A stretch of 22,469 nucleotides of DNA. Source: Candidatus Iainarchaeum sp. (GTDB lineage Archaea; B1Sed10-29; WALL01; JAGHAM01). Location of the stretch: the NCBI GenBank assembly GCA_021161465.1, contig JAGHAM010000006.1:1-22469 (forward strand), in the 5' to 3' direction. Every line of letters starts with the position of its first letter. Within the stretch, counting starts at the first letter, position 1. The notes beneath the pieces are model-generated. The model worked only from the letters and a program-made list of their open reading frames with translations. It did not search any database and had not been told where the DNA came from. This document shows, one piece after another, positions 4,915 through 22,469 of the stretch. A program made the position numbers and the translations under genes.

Positions 4915-5190
4915 ATGCAAAAGAGTAAGGGTAAACTTAGAGGTCATGGTAGGAAACTTAGAAGGCCAGTTAGGAAAACTGGGATAACTAAGCATTTGCA
5001 GGAGTTTAAAGTAGGTGAAAAAGTCTGCATAGACATCGATTCTTCTCGCCGTCCTGTTGCACCCCTCCCAAAGTTCCAGGGCAGAATGGGGGAAATTGAG
5101 GGGAAGCAGGGCACTGCTTACAAGGTTAAGATAAAAGATGGTGGGCTTACAAAAACCTTGCTTGTCGATTCAGTGCATTTAAAGAGGTGA
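4915..5190 (+). CDS. rpl21e: ribosomal protein eL21
   Basis: A component of the large ribosomal subunit found in archaea and eukaryotes. The 91-residue protein is highly basic at the N-terminus (MQKSKGKLRGHGRKLRRPVR), followed by the SH3-like core with FKVGEKVCIDID, FQGRMGEIEGKQGTAYKVKI and the C-terminal SVHLKR. Length and motif order match archaeal eL21. It is the first gene of a tight operon: its stop is 6 bp from the rpo4 start, and the ribosome site for rpo4 (GAGGTGA) overlaps its last codons. eL21 followed by RpoF and DUF655 is a conserved archaeal gene order, which supports all three assignments. Confidence 0.95.
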   Translation: MQKSKGKLRGHGRKLRRPVRKTGITKHLQEFKVGEKVCIDIDSSRRPVAPLPKFQGRMGEIEGKQGTAYKVKIKDGGLTKTLLVDSVHLKR

Positions 5191-5196
5191 ACCAAA

Positions 5197-5535
5197 GTGA
5201 TAGGAAGGGAATTAATAAAGCGTTCAGATGTGAGTTTAGGTCAGGTAAAATCAATCCTTGAGAAAAGAAAGAAAGAGGGGGAACTTTCATACGAGCAGAA
5301 AGTAACCTATGAGTATGCAAGGTCTCAAGGCAAGATAGGCCCAAGAAAAGCCCAGGAGCTTATAGCTAAGCTTATGGAAATTCCTTCAATCGATGAGCGT
5401 CTGGCAGTTATGATTGTTGATAATCCACCAAAGGACAAAGAAGACATTACTTTATTTTTTGAAAGGAAAAGGAATCGACCGACGGATGCCGAAGTAAAAA
5501 AGATACTCGATCTGATTGCAGAGTACACAGCTTAG
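5197..5535 (+). CDS. rpoF: DNA-directed RNA polymerase subunit Rpo4 (RpoF)
   Basis: A subunit of the polymerase stalk, where it pairs with Rpo7/RpoE; homologue of eukaryotic Rpb4. The 112-residue protein shows the usual organisation: an N-terminal part (about 1-40) that contacts Rpo7, then the HRDC-like helical domain with SYEQKVTYEYARSQGKI (about 31-47) and PSIDERLAVMIVDNPPKDKE (about 64-83), and a C-terminal TDAEVKKILDLIAEY. The start is GTG 5197, with GAGGTGA about 5 nt upstream, inside the end of the eL21 gene. The downstream DUF655 gene follows after 13 bp. Confidence 0.93.
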   Translation: MIGRELIKRSDVSLGQVKSILEKRKKEGELSYEQKVTYEYARSQGKIGPRKAQELIAKLMEIPSIDERLAVMIVDNPPKDKEDITLFFERKRNRPTDAEVKKILDLIAEYTA

Positions 5536-5548
5536 GGGGTTTCTTCCA

Positions 5549-6103
5549 ATGAAAGAGGAAAATGCTATAGTATTGGATTACTTGTCGAGAGGATACTCCT
5601 TCTCATACACAGGTGAACCTATAGCGCAGGCCATTGGAACGAACTATTTTACTCTGCTTGAGCTGGTCCCAAGGGAGGCCGTGTCCCTCAGTCTTGGCCA
5701 GGAAGTTTACATTGGACCGGATGAGAGAAAAGAGGTGAAGTTCATAAGGGGGAGATTACCCTATGATAGACTCACCAACACAGCAAAAATGGAACTCCCA
5801 CGCTCTGTTGAGGAGATAGTGATTAAAAACGAGGAGAGGTTCGTTGATTTCTTTAACAAGGCTGGCCCGATTTCAATTAGAAAGCACTCCCTTGAGCTAA
5901 TCCCAAGCATCGGCAAAGAGCATGCAAGGCACATCTTAGAAGAAAGGAATAAAAAGCCATTTGAAAGTTTCAAGGACATATCTGAGAGAGTAAAGCTTAT
6001 GCCTGACCCTGCAAGGGTAATCAAAGAAAGGGTGCTCGAAGAGCTGCAGGGGGACTCAAAGTACTTCTTGTTTACGATACCCCCAAAGCGGAAGGTTATG
6101 TAG
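5549..6103 (+). CDS. DUF655 family protein, OB-fold plus helix-hairpin-helix
   Basis: A 184-residue protein of the archaeal DUF655 family, whose genes usually follow rpoF. The N-terminal part (residues 1-95) contains the beta-rich segment LGQEVYIGPDERKEVKFIRG, expected for an OB-like fold. The C-terminal part (about 105-170) holds a helix-hairpin-helix signature, LELIPSIGKEHARHILEERN, with FESFKDISERV behind it, suggesting nucleic-acid binding. ATG 5549 is chosen because GGGGGT (5535-5540) lies 8 nt upstream; a longer frame from 5516 would overlap rpoF. A role in RNA handling or in translation-transcription coupling is often assumed from its neighbours, but no function is established that I know of. 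Confidence 0.88.
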   Translation: MKEENAIVLDYLSRGYSFSYTGEPIAQAIGTNYFTLLELVPREAVSLSLGQEVYIGPDERKEVKFIRGRLPYDRLTNTAKMELPRSVEEIVIKNEERFVDFFNKAGPISIRKHSLELIPSIGKEHARHILEERNKKPFESFKDISERVKLMPDPARVIKERVLEELQGDSKYFLFTIPPKRKVM

Positions 6104-6137: not shown

Positions 6138-7382
6138 ATGGTAAAGAGGATGGTTCTTGAATCTGGACAGTGCGAGCATGCAAAATGCATATTCTGTGGG
6201 TATTCTAAAGAGCGCGTCCCTGTGAACGTGCAACGGCTGAAAGTAAAACTTGATAAGGAGTTGCTTGATTTCAGCGATGATGAGCTGAGGGTTTACTCAA
6301 GCGGTTCTTTCTTTGATGATAAGCAGTTTCCCCCGGAATTCAGGAAGTATTTTGCTGAGAAGTGCAGGCAAAAAGGTGTTTCAAAACTTGTTCTGGAGTC
6401 AGTGCCAAAATTCATAACAGCAAAAACTCTGGCGGATTTTGATGGGATAAATCTGCACGTCGCCGTTGGGCTTGAGGTAGCTGATAACGAAGTTCTGCTA
6501 AAATTAAACAAGGGCTTCACCGTTGAGGATTATGTTCGGGCAGCTGAGACTATCCATCAGAGCGGTGCAAAACTTCGCACATACCTTCTTGCAAACCCTC
6601 CTTTTGTTGATGACATTAAGAAAAGCCTTTACGAGAGCGTTGAGTTTGCGAAGAAATATTCCGATTCCATAGTTGTAATTAACCTGCTCCCTCATTACAT
6701 GGCTCCACTCCTTGATATGTGGCTGGATGGCAGGTGGAATTTCCTGTCGAGGGAGGAATTCCACGAGCTTACTAAAGACCTTAAAGGCGTTGAGCTTGAT
6801 GAGGAGACATTCCATTTCGTGCCAAGGTTCCCTCCAGAGAAAAAGAGGTTCTGGAAGGGTGTTGGTGGAGAGTTCCTTGATAACCCACAATATCATGTCT
6901 GGCAGGATTACATAGCGCGGTGGTATCATGTTCCCGAAGGCAAGACAACAGTGCTGTTTTTGCCGTGCTCTTACAAGAAACCCTATTCAAGGTCAAAAAC
7001 CCATACGGCTATATACCACATACTGAAGCAAATTCCAGGAGGCAACAACGTTCACAGAGTAGTTATCTCCTCCCCGGGAGTAATCCCGTTCGAGTTCAAC
7101 AACAACTACCCCTTCAATGCTTATGACTGGGATGAAAGCCTTGAAACCCCGAAGATAAAGAGGGAGTACATAAAGGTAAACCAGAAGAGAATCAAAGCAT
7201 ATCTGAAGAATCATAAATACAAGCGCTATCTTTGTTTCTTTAAGCACTCGAGTGAATCCTACCAGGCACTTAAGCAGGCCTGCGACAGTCTTGGCATAAA
7301 GCTAGTGAATTGCATGGGCGCAGGAGACACGGTTCATTCCCATGAAGCTCTGAAAGGGCTCGAGGATTGCCTTAAAGGCTAG
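6138..7382 (+). CDS. archaeosine synthesis fusion: RaSEA-type radical SAM domain plus ArcS-type DUF5591 domain
   Basis: A 414-residue two-domain protein. Residues 1-240 resemble RaSEA, the radical SAM lyase that splits the lysine adduct on preQ0-tRNA to give archaeosine (G+). Visible motifs are the [4Fe-4S] set C12-x4-C17-x2-C20 followed by GY, VYSSGSFFDDKQFPPE, LVLESVPKFI, GLEVADNEVLLKLNKGFTVE and LLANPPFV. Residues about 265-410 resemble the DUF5591 domain of ArcS, which attaches lysine to preQ0: LFLPCSYKKPYSRSKTH and VISSPGVIPFEF followed by an aromatic-rich NYPFNAYDWD. The inactive TGT-like and PUA domains of full ArcS are missing. In the family literature these are two separate proteins, so one chain may carry out both steps. 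The N-terminus is short (11 residues before C12), and an upstream in-frame stop at 6126 rules out extension. Confidence 0.82.
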   Translation: MVKRMVLESGQCEHAKCIFCGYSKERVPVNVQRLKVKLDKELLDFSDDELRVYSSGSFFDDKQFPPEFRKYFAEKCRQKGVSKLVLESVPKFITAKTLADFDGINLHVAVGLEVADNEVLLKLNKGFTVEDYVRAAETIHQSGAKLRTYLLANPPFVDDIKKSLYESVEFAKKYSDSIVVINLLPHYMAPLLDMWLDGRWNFLSREEFHELTKDLKGVELDEETFHFVPRFPPEKKRFWKGVGGEFLDNPQYHVWQDYIARWYHVPEGKTTVLFLPCSYKKPYSRSKTHTAIYHILKQIPGGNNVHRVVISSPGVIPFEFNNNYPFNAYDWDESLETPKIKREYIKVNQKRIKAYLKNHKYKRYLCFFKHSSESYQALKQACDSLGIKLVNCMGAGDTVHSHEALKGLEDCLKG

Positions 7383-10940: not shown

Positions 10941-11300
10941 TCATCTCCTGGTATGATTTGCAATCCATTCCACGATATCATCTATTCCCGTACGTGGTTT
11001 TACGCTCCAAACAACAACGTTGAATTTAGATGTTTCACCAACTTCTAGTTTCTTTCCATTGGTTTCGAGCAAGGTAATAGCTGCTTCATATGCGGTCCTC
11101 TTGTTTCCATCTACAAACGGGTGCCTTCTTGCTATCTCCATCAGCATCGTTGCTACTTTCCTGTTTATCCCGCGAGTTGTACCGACCTTGAAGACAATGT
11201 ATTCCAGCTCTGCCTCACTTCTCACGCCCGCCTTGCTGAATTTTTGGTTTATCTTTATTAGGGCTTCTTTGGAGAGGGAATCCACCCTCACTTTAACCAT
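10941..11300 (-). CDS. Doc/Fic-family (death-on-curing) toxin-like protein
   Basis: A 119-residue protein with the Doc form of the Fic motif, HPFVDGNKRTAYEAA (residues 60-74; His60, Asp64, Asn66, Lys67, Arg68). Doc of phage P1 transfers phosphate to EF-Tu and stops translation; true Fic enzymes have GNGR and AMPylate. The GNKR form here points to the Doc side. Upstream, LEYIVFKVG corresponds to the beta flap that holds the target. No inhibitory [ST]-x3-E-[GN] helix is visible within the protein. A TATA-like TATTTAATT at 11323-11331 is centred 27 nt from ATG 11300, so it has its own leaderless promoter. A coupled 42-residue gene follows. The chromosomal target and toxicity in this archaeon are unknown. 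Confidence 0.85.
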   Translation of the reverse strand: MVKVRVDSLSKEALIKINQKFSKAGVRSEAELEYIVFKVGTTRGINRKVATMLMEIARRHPFVDGNKRTAYEAAITLLETNGKKLEVGETSKFNVVVWSVKPRTGIDDIVEWIANHTRR

Positions 11301-17796: not shown

Positions 17797-20700
17797 TTAG
17801 TACACCTCCTTTATTGCTCCTCCTCCACTACCCCCACCGCTTGTTTTCTCTTCCGGGAACGATGGTGGAACTAGTGGAATTTTCTCACTTAGTTTGCAAA
17901 TGTTGTTTGTCTTGATTAACAAGGCATTTCCGTAAAGCTTCTCACTTATTGGTCCTTCCAATCTTACCCATCTCCTTTCTGGTGTTGAGTAAAAGTATGT
18001 TGAAACTACATCACAGTTTCCAAGGTCTTTTACCCACTTCCCAACCATATCTGGGACTACTGGGACAAAATTCCAGCCTGGAGTCAGTTCATCAAGTTCA
18101 TCCAACAAAGTTGGTGCTTTAATCTTTGCTGTGATGTGACACGTGCCTGTAGCGTAAACCCAATAGCCTTTACCTATTTCTGGGTATTTGATGGAATGGA
18201 ATGTGTTGTTTTCTTTGCCATACTCAAATACTCTCCACTGATGGGTGTCGCATTCTCCCCTAGTGCTGACATCGCTAAGCTGCCCCGGGAGGGAGAACAA
18301 GTTCCAGCCTTTGTGAATTGTGAATGTTATACCACTTGCTTGTTTTTTGCAACAGCAGTGAGTGGTCAATGGTTCAATTGGTGTGGTTGGTGGTGCCTGA
18401 AGCAGTTCTTCATTAGATGGTTTTGATTCACCCACCACCCAGGCGCTTGAGTAGTCATTGTAGCAATGTGGTATGTATACCTTAATGTATCTGAATTTTC
18501 CAGGTATATGGATGGTGTCAGAGTAAATTGTTTTTGGGTGCCAGGTTTCCTGAGTGACGCCCTTGTTGAGAACTTCTATCCAGTTTTGCCCATCGGTAGA
18601 GTAATACACAGTCATGTTAGTGGTACATCCCTGGGCCCAACCAGGTTTGTACTCAATTTTAACGTCTCTATCAGAAAATACATTACCTAAATCATGTACA
18701 TGGGTATGTGTATAACAGCAACAACAGTCTTTTATATATCCCTTCTTTCCGGGTGGCCAACCGCACTCCATAGCTGCACTTTGTGGTTCTGACCACCCAC
18801 CACCGTAGTTGCATTTATCATAGCCTGGTGTTGATTTGGTGATTCCCACCACCGCAGAAGTTATGGGTTTTGTAGCTCTCAAGACTGGTGCCATGCTACA
18901 GAATTTTGTACCAAGGTCTTTCTCTCCTACCTCACACTTTGGAGCACAGCTACCGAATGTGTAGCCTTCCTTATTGCAAGCTTCTTGGCATGAAACCCCT
19001 GGCACTTCTTTTGTTATTACAAATGTGGCGTATTTTTCATTTATGCTTTTCAGTGTTATCTTCACACCGAACACTTTTATAGATTCTCCCTCTGCTAGAT
19101 TGTATCTCCTGTAAAATCTCTCCTTCACTTTTTCTATCTCTATTGCTCTTGAGATTTTTCCAACTTCATCTGTCATATTTGTGACGAACTTCTTTATTGG
19201 AGTTAATATCTTGATACCTTGGGTAACTTGCTCAGGTTGTCGAGTTTCCTTCGTGATTACATCACTTGTCACCATACCTGTTACTGGAATTGCTCTTACA
19301 GCTTCCAATCCTTTGGGTTTGACTGCGGTTGTGTTAAGTGCAACAACCATTCCTGGGTTTTCTTGTATTATGGTTGGCCTTTCAAGTGTTGGCCATACTG
19401 TTATGGAGGCTACAAACTTTATCCTCTTTGGGATTTCCTCGGAAGATGGGTTCCCATCCTTGAGGGGCACTATGACCGGTAGTTTCCTTATGGAGTCAAG
19501 CCTCATTACCAACACGCGATAGTCAACAAGTCTGGCTCTCTGTTCTTCTTCCAGGTTGAAGGGCTTATCAAGCCTAACAGGAATTTCAGAGCCTTCCGTG
19601 TTAACCATGAATGCTGCCCATGTGGTACCTTTAATACTGTTAATCCCCAGGAGCTTGAGCGTTGTTCCAAACACGTTTTTCGTTTCGCCTGTGCTAATTC
19701 TTACAGTCTCTTCTTCGCCACCTGATTGAATCGTAAAGATAGCAAAGCTTTTCCCACCAGGGATGGAAGGGACTGCAACATCTTTCAAGGTCAGTTTTAT
19801 GTTCTTGTAATCAACTACAGAAGCGCACCCGCCTACCTTTAATCTGGAGATTTGGTTGGTTCTGATAGCCAGGCATGGCACTGGACCAGGTTCTTCACCT
19901 ACCCTCACGCTAGAGTATGTATTGTAGCACTTTGGAACTTCAACTTTGATATACCTGAAGTCAGTAACACCATGGATTGTTGTCACGTAGGGTTTCCGTG
20001 ACTCTTGGTCTCCTGGTAATCCACCTATGGATGTTGAGATTACATCCATTCTTTTGATTTCTTGCCAGTTTTGATTGTCTGTGGATTTATAGATTATAGC
20101 CTGTGTTTTACAGCCATCCTCAGAACCAGGTCTGACTGTTACGTAAAGTGTTGCAGGCCCCTTTATTGGTGCCTTGAAATCATGAACGTGTGCTATTTGA
20201 TACCATCCACAACAGTCTGGTAATCCACTCTTGCAGTAACTGGGATCAGTGGAATAATTCTTGTCACCTATTGAGTACCCCAAACCATTGTCACAACTCT
20301 CAAATACTAGTGGCTTTTCTTCGTTCACTACAGAAAACGGTGCATTGCTTTCATCTCTTGCCCAAAGTGTTCCATCAGTGACTGTTATCTCTATCTTGTA
20401 CCTGCCATTGGGCACCTGGCTCGTGTCCCAAAGATAGCTACCTACGTTCTTGACATGCGTTGCTATTGATATACTTGGTCCACATACTAGTTTACAGACA
20501 CTAGCTTCTGCTGGGGATTGGGTGGTTGTGTGTACTGGGCACACTGTTCTGCATGGCTGGTAGTATATCCCAACATCATCTAAGATTTCCCCATCAGGGT
20601 CATAAGCTTTCCATGAAATCTTCTGAGCCCCTCTAAGCTCCTCTCCACCATTTGGGGATACCACTGTTATGTGAGGTGGTCTGTTTGTTGCGTTTGTTGC

Positions 20701-21990
20701 ATTAGTCACGTTAACGTAAACTTCACATGGTTCTTTCATCTTATTGTTGTTTTCATTAGTTTCCACTATGTCATTGAATGGGTCCACCACTACTGAAAGT
20801 TTGTGTTGTCCTGGAGTTGTTGTGTACCACTCAAGGTAACTGGTTAAGTTTGTGTTTGGTTTCTGGTCATAGACGGGAGTTATCCATACGATTTCATCGT
20901 TGTCGTAAAGTGCTATCTTGTATGTTAGAGGTGTTGTCTCTTCTGTTTTTTGATACACCTCCACAGGGATTTCATATCTTCCCCCAACAGTTACTTTTGG
21001 TGGACAACTAACTCTCTCTAATATTAAATCAGAAGACACAGTCATGTTTTCTTTTACGTATATGGGTAATGCATAAGAGTTGTTTAATCCATCGTTATCA
21101 GTTGTGGTCAACACTACTGCATAGGTTCCAGAAGAATTGTAAGTGTGTTCAATCCTGCCGGGACGACCTTTTTTCTCTGCAATGGTTCCGTCTCCAAAGC
21201 TTACTCTATAGTATGATATATAACCATCTGAATCATAGGAGTCTGACGCATCAAACCTGCATGCACTTCTAGCATAGCACTCACCCATCATTGTTATAAG
21301 TGATTTTGGTGGTTGGTTATGTCCTTCGGTGCAAACATTGTTATTACAGCTTTGTCCTTCCTCGCAGTCTTGATCAGACCAGCAGAATCCATGGCCTATA
21401 CAACCGTTCTCTGGGGAGAGTATGCACGTCCAAGTTCCAGACTTACTACAGTCACACCATTGCACTTTAAAACCATCTGGGCAGGTGTAAGATTTTGTGT
21501 CTCCAGGAGCACATTGGTGACTGCAGTCATCGTCTTCTGTTGAAGTGCATCCAGCTGGACAACAGCCATCCCCACTTATACATATCGTTATTGGGACATG
21601 AGTGCAATTGTTGTTTATGCACATATCTGCAGTGCATGGATTATTATCATCGCAATTAATTGGTTCATAAAAGCAAGACCCGTTGGCGCAGATGTCTGTT
21701 GTACACCCATTACCATCATCACAATCCAAGCTGGTTGTACATGTGTCATTCGCAGTTTGGTTCCCTGCACAGTCTGAATCCGTTTGTGATGTGCACTCAC
21801 TTGGACAACAACCGTCACCCGGCATGCAAACAGTAATTTGTTGATGGGTGCATGACCCCATTATACAGGCATCCAATGTGCACGGGTTTCCATCATCGCA
21901 CTCGCTGTTGGCGTGACATTGTGCACTGGCCACACTAATCGCCATCAGTGAAAACAAAAGGATAAACAACGGAAGAATCTTAGAATTCAT
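17797..21990 (-). CDS. large secreted multidomain Cys-rich surface protein
   Basis: A 1397-residue protein with a signal peptide (residues 1-24, ending ASAQ). Domains by eye: Cys-rich repeats of the CDDGNPCTLDAC and GDGCCPSECTS types (25-155); a second Cys region (155-225); a PKD-like domain with FGDGT (about 230-315); a CARDB-like domain (323-430); an Ig-like SPNGGEELRG domain (440-560); a discoidin-like domain (563-697); three small beta units (703-997); a Cys cluster (1000-1033); a second discoidin-like domain (1060-1187); and a C-terminal GWNLFSLP/GKGYWVY region (1228-1380). Both discoidin-like units carry a DCC...HVHD motif. No C-terminal membrane helix or obvious sorting tail is present. 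ATG 21990 (GGTGG upstream) is preferred over GTG 22002. Likely roles are surface adhesion or sugar binding; no enzyme signature is seen. Domain names are by resemblance. Confidence 0.85.
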   Translation of the reverse strand: MNSKILPLFILLFSLMAISVASAQCHANSECDDGNPCTLDACIMGSCTHQQITVCMPGDGCCPSECTSQTDSDCAGNQTANDTCTTSLDCDDGNGCTTDICANGSCFYEPINCDDNNPCTADMCINNNCTHVPITICISGDGCCPAGCTSTEDDDCSHQCAPGDTKSYTCPDGFKVQWCDCSKSGTWTCILSPENGCIGHGFCWSDQDCEEGQSCNNNVCTEGHNQPPKSLITMMGECYARSACRFDASDSYDSDGYISYYRVSFGDGTIAEKKGRPGRIEHTYNSSGTYAVVLTTTDNDGLNNSYALPIYVKENMTVSSDLILERVSCPPKVTVGGRYEIPVEVYQKTEETTPLTYKIALYDNDEIVWITPVYDQKPNTNLTSYLEWYTTTPGQHKLSVVVDPFNDIVETNENNNKMKEPCEVYVNVTNATNATNRPPHITVVSPNGGEELRGAQKISWKAYDPDGEILDDVGIYYQPCRTVCPVHTTTQSPAEASVCKLVCGPSISIATHVKNVGSYLWDTSQVPNGRYKIEITVTDGTLWARDESNAPFSVVNEEKPLVFESCDNGLGYSIGDKNYSTDPSYCKSGLPDCCGWYQIAHVHDFKAPIKGPATLYVTVRPGSEDGCKTQAIIYKSTDNQNWQEIKRMDVISTSIGGLPGDQESRKPYVTTIHGVTDFRYIKVEVPKCYNTYSSVRVGEEPGPVPCLAIRTNQISRLKVGGCASVVDYKNIKLTLKDVAVPSIPGGKSFAIFTIQSGGEEETVRISTGETKNVFGTTLKLLGINSIKGTTWAAFMVNTEGSEIPVRLDKPFNLEEEQRARLVDYRVLVMRLDSIRKLPVIVPLKDGNPSSEEIPKRIKFVASITVWPTLERPTIIQENPGMVVALNTTAVKPKGLEAVRAIPVTGMVTSDVITKETRQPEQVTQGIKILTPIKKFVTNMTDEVGKISRAIEIEKVKERFYRRYNLAEGESIKVFGVKITLKSINEKYATFVITKEVPGVSCQEACNKEGYTFGSCAPKCEVGEKDLGTKFCSMAPVLRATKPITSAVVGITKSTPGYDKCNYGGGWSEPQSAAMECGWPPGKKGYIKDCCCCYTHTHVHDLGNVFSDRDVKIEYKPGWAQGCTTNMTVYYSTDGQNWIEVLNKGVTQETWHPKTIYSDTIHIPGKFRYIKVYIPHCYNDYSSAWVVGESKPSNEELLQAPPTTPIEPLTTHCCCKKQASGITFTIHKGWNLFSLPGQLSDVSTRGECDTHQWRVFEYGKENNTFHSIKYPEIGKGYWVYATGTCHITAKIKAPTLLDELDELTPGWNFVPVVPDMVGKWVKDLGNCDVVSTYFYSTPERRWVRLEGPISEKLYGNALLIKTNNICKLSEKIPLVPPSFPEEKTSGGGSGGGAIKEVY

Positions 21991-22017
21991 TTCAACCACC
22001 ACTTCATATTATGCATA

Positions 22018-22147: not shown

Positions 22148-22469
22148 ATGCAAGTTCGTCTGTGGAAGTTTGTCCCGCTAAGCCCAAATGCGTTCACTGG
22201 CCATATGGCTGCTGTGGTTTACTTCTGCGGCTGCAACTGGAGGTGCCCCTACTGCAATGTCCCAGGAGCTCTTGACCCAGCAAAGTGCAAGGAAACCCTT
22301 ACGAGTGATGTGTTCACAGAGCTTGTCCATGCCAGGGAGTTCATAGACGCTGTTGTGTTCACTGGTGGGGAGCCAACCTTACAGAGCAAGGCTCTTATAA
22401 CTCTTTGCGAGCTTGCTAAAGGGGAAGGCCTGTCAACGAAGGTCCATACAAATGGTTCAAGGCCATGGG
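22148..22469 (+). CDS. radical SAM activating-enzyme-like protein (partial, 3' end outside window)
   Basis: The first 107 codons are open from ATG 22148 to the window end. FCGCNWRCPYCNVPGAL carries the radical SAM triad C-x3-C-x2-C, and FTGGEPTLQ is the GGE motif that helps bind S-adenosylmethionine. VHTNGSRP follows, as in glycyl-radical activating enzymes. The opening segment WKFVPLSPNAFTGHMAAVVY fits the NrdG/PflA-like archaeal group annotated as anaerobic ribonucleotide-reductase activating proteins. The exact substrate cannot be fixed without the missing C-terminal half and its neighbours. It is divergent from the secreted-protein operon. Confidence 0.85.
   Translation, partial: MQVRLWKFVPLSPNAFTGHMAAVVYFCGCNWRCPYCNVPGALDPAKCKETLTSDVFTELVHAREFIDAVVFTGGEPTLQSKALITLCELAKGEGLSTKVHTNGSRPW

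Follow-up and report, generated by a model that had tools for sequence, protein, structure and literature searches.

The fused gene and its surroundings

In the window, that is, the whole stretch of 22,469 nucleotides that was analysed, a forward-strand open reading frame encodes a protein of 414 amino acids in which a radical SAM core is followed by a DUF5591 domain in a single frame. The coordinates of its features are listed in Table 1. The initial annotation had described RaSEA-like and DUF5591 motifs lying in one frame, and all of the quoted motifs were found in this reading frame, including GLEVADNEV at residues 111-119 of the N-terminal half and VISSPGVIPFEF, the second motif quoted for the DUF5591 half.

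Table 1. Positions in the window of the fused gene, its domains and motifs, and the genes upstream of it.
Feature	Position	Strand	Evidence or remark
rpl21e, rpoF (Rpb4) and DUF655/HHH genes	4915..6103	+	upstream of and co-directional with the fusion
Fused radical SAM / DUF5591 protein, candidate one-chain archaeosine synthase	6138..7382	+	motifs, Pfam, NCBIfam, orthologues, AlphaFold2
RaSEA-like radical SAM core, residues ~1-235	6138..6842	+	top fold match queuine lyase 6p78
C12-x4-C17-x2-C20 (then GY), predicted 4Fe-4S ligands	6171..6197	+	invariant in 28 orthologues
SGSFFDD, residues 55-61 (SSGSFFDD 54-61)	6300..6320	+	SGSF common to canonical RaSEA
GLE, residues 111-113	6468..6476	+	invariant, common to canonical RaSEA
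DUF5591 domain (ArcS catalytic core), residues 255-411	6900..7370	+	AF0587 (2q07) fold
PCSYKKPYSRSKTH, residues 276-289	6963..7004	+	DUF5591 signature PC..KPY..S..H, also in ArcS
SSPGVIPFEF block of DUF5591	7068..7097	+	

In the Pfam scan, Radical_SAM matched residues 12-145 with 30.2 bits (cut-off 29.5), and DUF5591 (PF17884) matched residues 255-411 with 78.6 bits, above the gathering cut-off of 26. Among the NCBIfam profiles, that of RaSEA (TIGR01210) was aligned over positions 18-205 of 313 with an E-value of 4.9e-34 and a score of 118 bits, which does not reach its cut-off of 212 bits, and that of ArcS (NF040592) was aligned over positions 280-431 of 575 with an E-value of 3.1e-19, far under its full-length cut-off. 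The identities first given to the two halves were thus borne out by the profile searches. That is, the C-terminal half scored three times the DUF5591 cut-off, and the N-terminal half matched RaSEA. Twenty-eight orthologues were aligned end to end, and about 45 invariant residues are spread across both halves. The AlphaFold2 model of the full chain had a mean pLDDT of 93.7 and a pTM of 0.88, and fair confidence can therefore be given to the predicted placement of one domain against the other.

The fusion starts 34 nt past the end of the DUF655/HHH gene (5552-6103), which has the same direction, and because of this short distance it is probably co-transcribed with rpl21e, rpoF and DUF655. Several relatives also have this cluster ahead of the fusion, and in one genome (G001) a lactate/malate dehydrogenase-like gene lies between the two. 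Elsewhere the window encodes a small Fic-family protein (10941-11300) adjoining a DUF1699/HTH gene and a topoisomerase VI A/B pair, a predicted surface protein of 1401 aa with PKD, CARDB and F5/8 type C domains (17797-22002), and the start of another radical SAM gene, of the type with a single 4Fe-4S cluster, which is cut by the window end (22148-22468).

Distribution of the fusion and its partner genes

The fusion profile matched over its full length in 45 of the 393 archaeal genomes searched. With four less complete genomes, at least 49 genomes possess the fusion, and they belong to 37 genera and 22 families. Where other genomes gave matches, their RaSEA-type (~340 aa) and DUF5591 proteins are mostly separate. 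By whole-genome searches, fusions with 36-62% identity were seen throughout the phylum of the window and outside it, and a scan of named genomes gave twelve fusion loci, whose records carry the labels Altiarchaeota, Diapherotrites and Micrarchaeota or belong to unnamed archaea. Such labels disagree within one order, and the window fits best as that of a DPANN-type archaeon close to Diapherotrites.

In all 49 genomes the fusion is the only convincing DUF5591 protein. Only one further match exceeded the cut-off, namely a weak one of 27 bits in G110, which falls within that genome's own TGT frame. Exactly one DUF5591 was present in 16 of the 19 genomes of the window's phylum, and none was found in G005, G007 and G015. 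RaSEA was searched for in 35 fusion genomes, and no separate copy with a full score was found; the other matches were mostly weak and of the size of Elp3, and a stronger one occurred in G359, but this genome has 8% contamination. In the window's own genome (G000), a draft of 40 contigs that is 93% complete, profile searches found neither a separate ArcS nor a separate RaSEA. This genome has one DUF5591 gene and one TGT gene, which is ArcTGT, and these counts speak for the reading of the gene as a fused synthase. The matches of the ArcS profile NF040592 on contig C3 of this genome were considered as ArcS and rejected, as they belong to ArcTGT with its PUA domain.

This ArcTGT (G000:C3:12341-13270, in a frame of 556 aa) matched TIGR00432 with 461 bits (cut-off 350) and has TGT_C2 and PUA domains; it is located on another contig than the fusion. 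A TGT gene was found in 46 of the 49 fusion genomes, its identity as ArcTGT being checked in two of the 46 (G000 and G329), and only G030 has two. The three genomes without a TGT match are all incomplete or contaminated. In seven genomes from four families (G030, G052, G072, G044, G161, G281 and G329), the fusion and TGT are arranged head to head on opposite strands, and 85-93 bp separate their matches. A distance of no more than 3 kb was seen in another six, namely G213, G191 and four members of family f51. Adjacency of the fusion and ArcTGT genes was seen across six families, and for a genome size near 1 Mb we estimate the chance of any single pairing within 3 kb at <1%. In family f51, a gene for a multi-pass membrane protein, which weakly matches the drug/metabolite transporter type, is placed between ArcTGT and the fusion (L146:6466-7335, L147:5329-6198).

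As to the supply of preQ0, QueF was found in none of the 33 genomes searched, nor in G000. QueC was also not found in the 93% complete G000, in which only weak PP-loop matches were obtained, and is retained in Altiarchaeota-type genomes. G000 has one Vut_1/YhhQ-type transporter gene (G000:C28:6832-7317); Vut_1 is presumably the same as the YhhQ/COG1738 family. Since this gene is present and QueC is absent, import of preQ0 is likely in the window's organism, which probably salvages it from outside. Proteins of the YhhQ/COG1738 family have been reported as transporters of preQ0 or preQ1 (PMC7694415). Most genomes of the window's phylum lack both QueC and the Vut_1/YhhQ-type transporter.

The two halves also occur unfused, as overlapping neighbour genes, in two archaea. 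In G040 (L130:376-2983), a RaSEA gene (361 aa) overlaps a stand-alone DUF5591 gene (216 aa), and a Vut_1 (YhhQ-type) transporter gene lies directly upstream of the pair. In G324 (L138:1573-2999), a radical SAM gene of 253 aa overlaps a DUF5591 gene of 235 aa, and a Vut_1 gene is located about 2.5 kb away. These pairs may be related to the fused form by fusion or by fission. A protein on contig C126 of G040, considered as an ArcS with a broken motif, was rejected, since it is actually an ArcTGT with a degenerate DUF5591-like C-terminal domain. At L131:937-2577 of G040, an ArcTGT (TIGR00432, 576 bits) carries a DUF5591-like C-terminal domain with LPSSERRPF in place of LPCSxxKPY. In another genome, G047, a stand-alone DUF5591 protein and a full-length ArcS-type protein of 714 aa with an intact signature are both encoded (L139:1468-2163; G047:C1:30465-30932).

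Comparison of the two halves with known enzymes

The radical SAM half shares with canonical RaSEA (TIGR01210) a radical SAM core that retains the cluster cysteines (C-x4-C-x2-C), SGSF, GLE and further core residues. In contrast, the N-terminal extension of RaSEA is gone, and the C-terminal cysteine module, which reads NCxxC..CxC in most canonical RaSEAs, is absent from all of the fusions aligned. Only the part of the profile given above was aligned. Because this module is missing, the lyase step may need another component.

Among solved structures, the top fold match of residues 1-227 was queuine lyase with SAM and queuine (6p78; Z 18.8, rmsd 3.0, 205 residues aligned), and viperin and Elp3 ranked behind it. 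The sequence profile of the fusion also matched 6p78, with an E-value of 9e-13. Queuine lyase resembles the N-terminal half in being a radical SAM lyase that acts on a 7-deazaguanine and has a short barrel. However, the identity is 22% over the aligned part, queuine lyase has no DUF5591 domain, and the solved complex contains queuine as a free base, not tRNA.

Residues 253-414 matched the fold of AF0587 of Archaeoglobus (2q07; Z 15.6, rmsd 2.2, 136 residues aligned), a DUF5591 protein of unknown function, and the sequence profile matched it with an E-value of 2e-13. AF0587 shares the DUF5591 fold and signature with the fusion but has no radical SAM domain. The signature PC..KPY..S..H is identical in the fusion and in ArcS. 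The TGT-like N-terminal domain of ArcS is absent, that is, Pfam and NCBIfam show only radical SAM before DUF5591; no C-terminal PUA was matched in the Pfam scan, and the chain ends after DUF5591. The minimal form without these ArcS domains, which the initial annotation had proposed, was in this way confirmed. That annotation did not include the loss of the RaSEA cysteine module, the position of DUF5591 off the ArcS branch, the wide distribution of the fusion, or its closeness to ArcTGT in other genomes.

In the maximum-likelihood tree of DUF5591, which is unrooted and in which several non-fused rows are long branches, the fused and stand-alone domains were split from the ArcS-type domains with a support of 100/98, and the tree fits one origin of the fused form (81/75). 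Since its DUF5591 domain is off the ArcS branch, the fusion does not seem to be simply a trimmed ArcS.

The known system closest to these features is the euryarchaeal complex of ArcS (alpha) and RaSEA (beta), described as archaeosine synthase by Yokogawa et al. 2019, as cited in PMC11298593. Both systems combine the DUF5591 lysine-transfer core carrying the signature with the RaSEA radical SAM core, both have ArcTGT as the pathway partner, and in both the two parts act, or would act, together. In the complex, however, these are two proteins, whereas here they form one chain, which lacks the TGT-like domain, PUA and the RaSEA cysteine module and whose DUF5591 domain is on a separate branch.

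Proposed reaction and its alternatives

In T. kodakarensis, ArcS moves lysine to preQ0 in tRNA, RaSEA turns the resulting preQ0-Lys into archaeosine, and the two proteins form a complex (PMC11298593). From its motifs, conservation and gene content, we judge that the gene in the window most likely encodes a minimal single-chain archaeosine synthase, which would attach lysine to preQ0 at position 15 of tRNA and then cleave the product to archaeosine. The reactions may proceed in the following order. ArcTGT, encoded elsewhere in the genome, would put preQ0, which probably enters through the YhhQ/Vut_1-type transporter, at position 15. The DUF5591 half would then add lysine to the nitrile of preQ0 to give preQ0-Lys. 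Using SAM and the 4Fe-4S cluster, the radical SAM half would produce a 5'-deoxyadenosyl radical, which would cut the carbon-nitrogen bond of the lysine so that archaeosine remains. One body would thus carry both sites, as the separate ArcS and RaSEA achieve by forming a complex, and the intermediate may be channelled between them. With the TGT-like and PUA domains of ArcS gone, tRNA recognition would probably depend on contact with ArcTGT, or on simple recognition of the modified nucleotide. It was reported that ArcS of T. kodakarensis accepts even the preQ0 nucleoside and that the D-arm speeds the reaction (PMC11298593). Thus, a full tRNA-binding platform seems to be unnecessary for lysine transfer.

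Other explanations should be weighed against this one. The draft state of the genome, with its 40 contigs, is the only point in favour of a chance or assembly join of unrelated genes, or of a decaying gene. Dozens of genomes from other species show the same junction, with the fusion at full length, 36-62% identity and no stop inside. We therefore excluded such a join, and regard this explanation as a whole as vanishingly improbable. Another explanation is that only one half is competent. That is, DUF5591 would make preQ0-Lys as the final modification, and the short radical SAM half, which lacks the RaSEA cysteine module and stays under the RaSEA cut-off, would be impaired or serve as a scaffold. 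However, 28 orthologues show no variation in the three cluster cysteines, SGS, GLE or further core residues, the barrel with which queuine lyase functions is similarly short at about 230 residues, and there was no other full-score RaSEA in the fusion genomes searched. We think on these grounds that a single competent half is very unlikely.

It is also conceivable that a paralogous DUF5591-radical SAM pair carries out a related but different reaction, with an amine donor other than lysine, or on a substrate other than G15 of tRNA, such as free preQ0 or another 7-deazaguanine. As the DUF5591 domain lies outside the ArcS branch (100/98), another amine donor might be used. A different reaction is also favoured by the N-terminal half, which is more like queuine lyase than any other solved structure, and by G047, which holds a stand-alone DUF5591 beside a full-length ArcS with an intact motif. 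In contrast, the fusion strictly takes the place of ArcS and RaSEA in the genomes that carry it, which together with the ArcTGT adjacency in six families points to archaeosine, and the signature is the same as that of ArcS. Taken together, a different reaction appears very unlikely, and archaeosine synthesis by a single chain is the reading that we prefer. The balance is even as to whether the protein represents a separate lineage of archaeosine synthase and not a trimmed ArcS. Such a lineage would consist of a DUF5591-radical SAM enzyme in one chain, sometimes split into two genes, which has no tRNA-binding domains of its own, relies on ArcTGT and supports preQ0 salvage in archaea with reduced genomes.

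Archaeosine is a widespread modification of archaeal tRNA, and the route through ArcS and RaSEA was reportedly elucidated only in 2019. Neither the pathway nor the two domain families are new. In the open literature searched, which did not take in the 2019 discovery paper, we did not find a description of the fusion, nor of its breadth, the position of its DUF5591 on a branch of its own, the lack of the RaSEA module or the ArcTGT and transporter neighbourhoods. If our proposal is true, a protein of 414 residues with both sites would be the minimal machinery for both archaeosine steps, and a compact target for solving how preQ0-Lys passes from the transferase site to the radical SAM site. It would also explain how archaeosine could be completed in small-genome archaea without ArcS, RaSEA and QueF, and genomes that are now scored as lacking an archaeosine synthase could be re-annotated.
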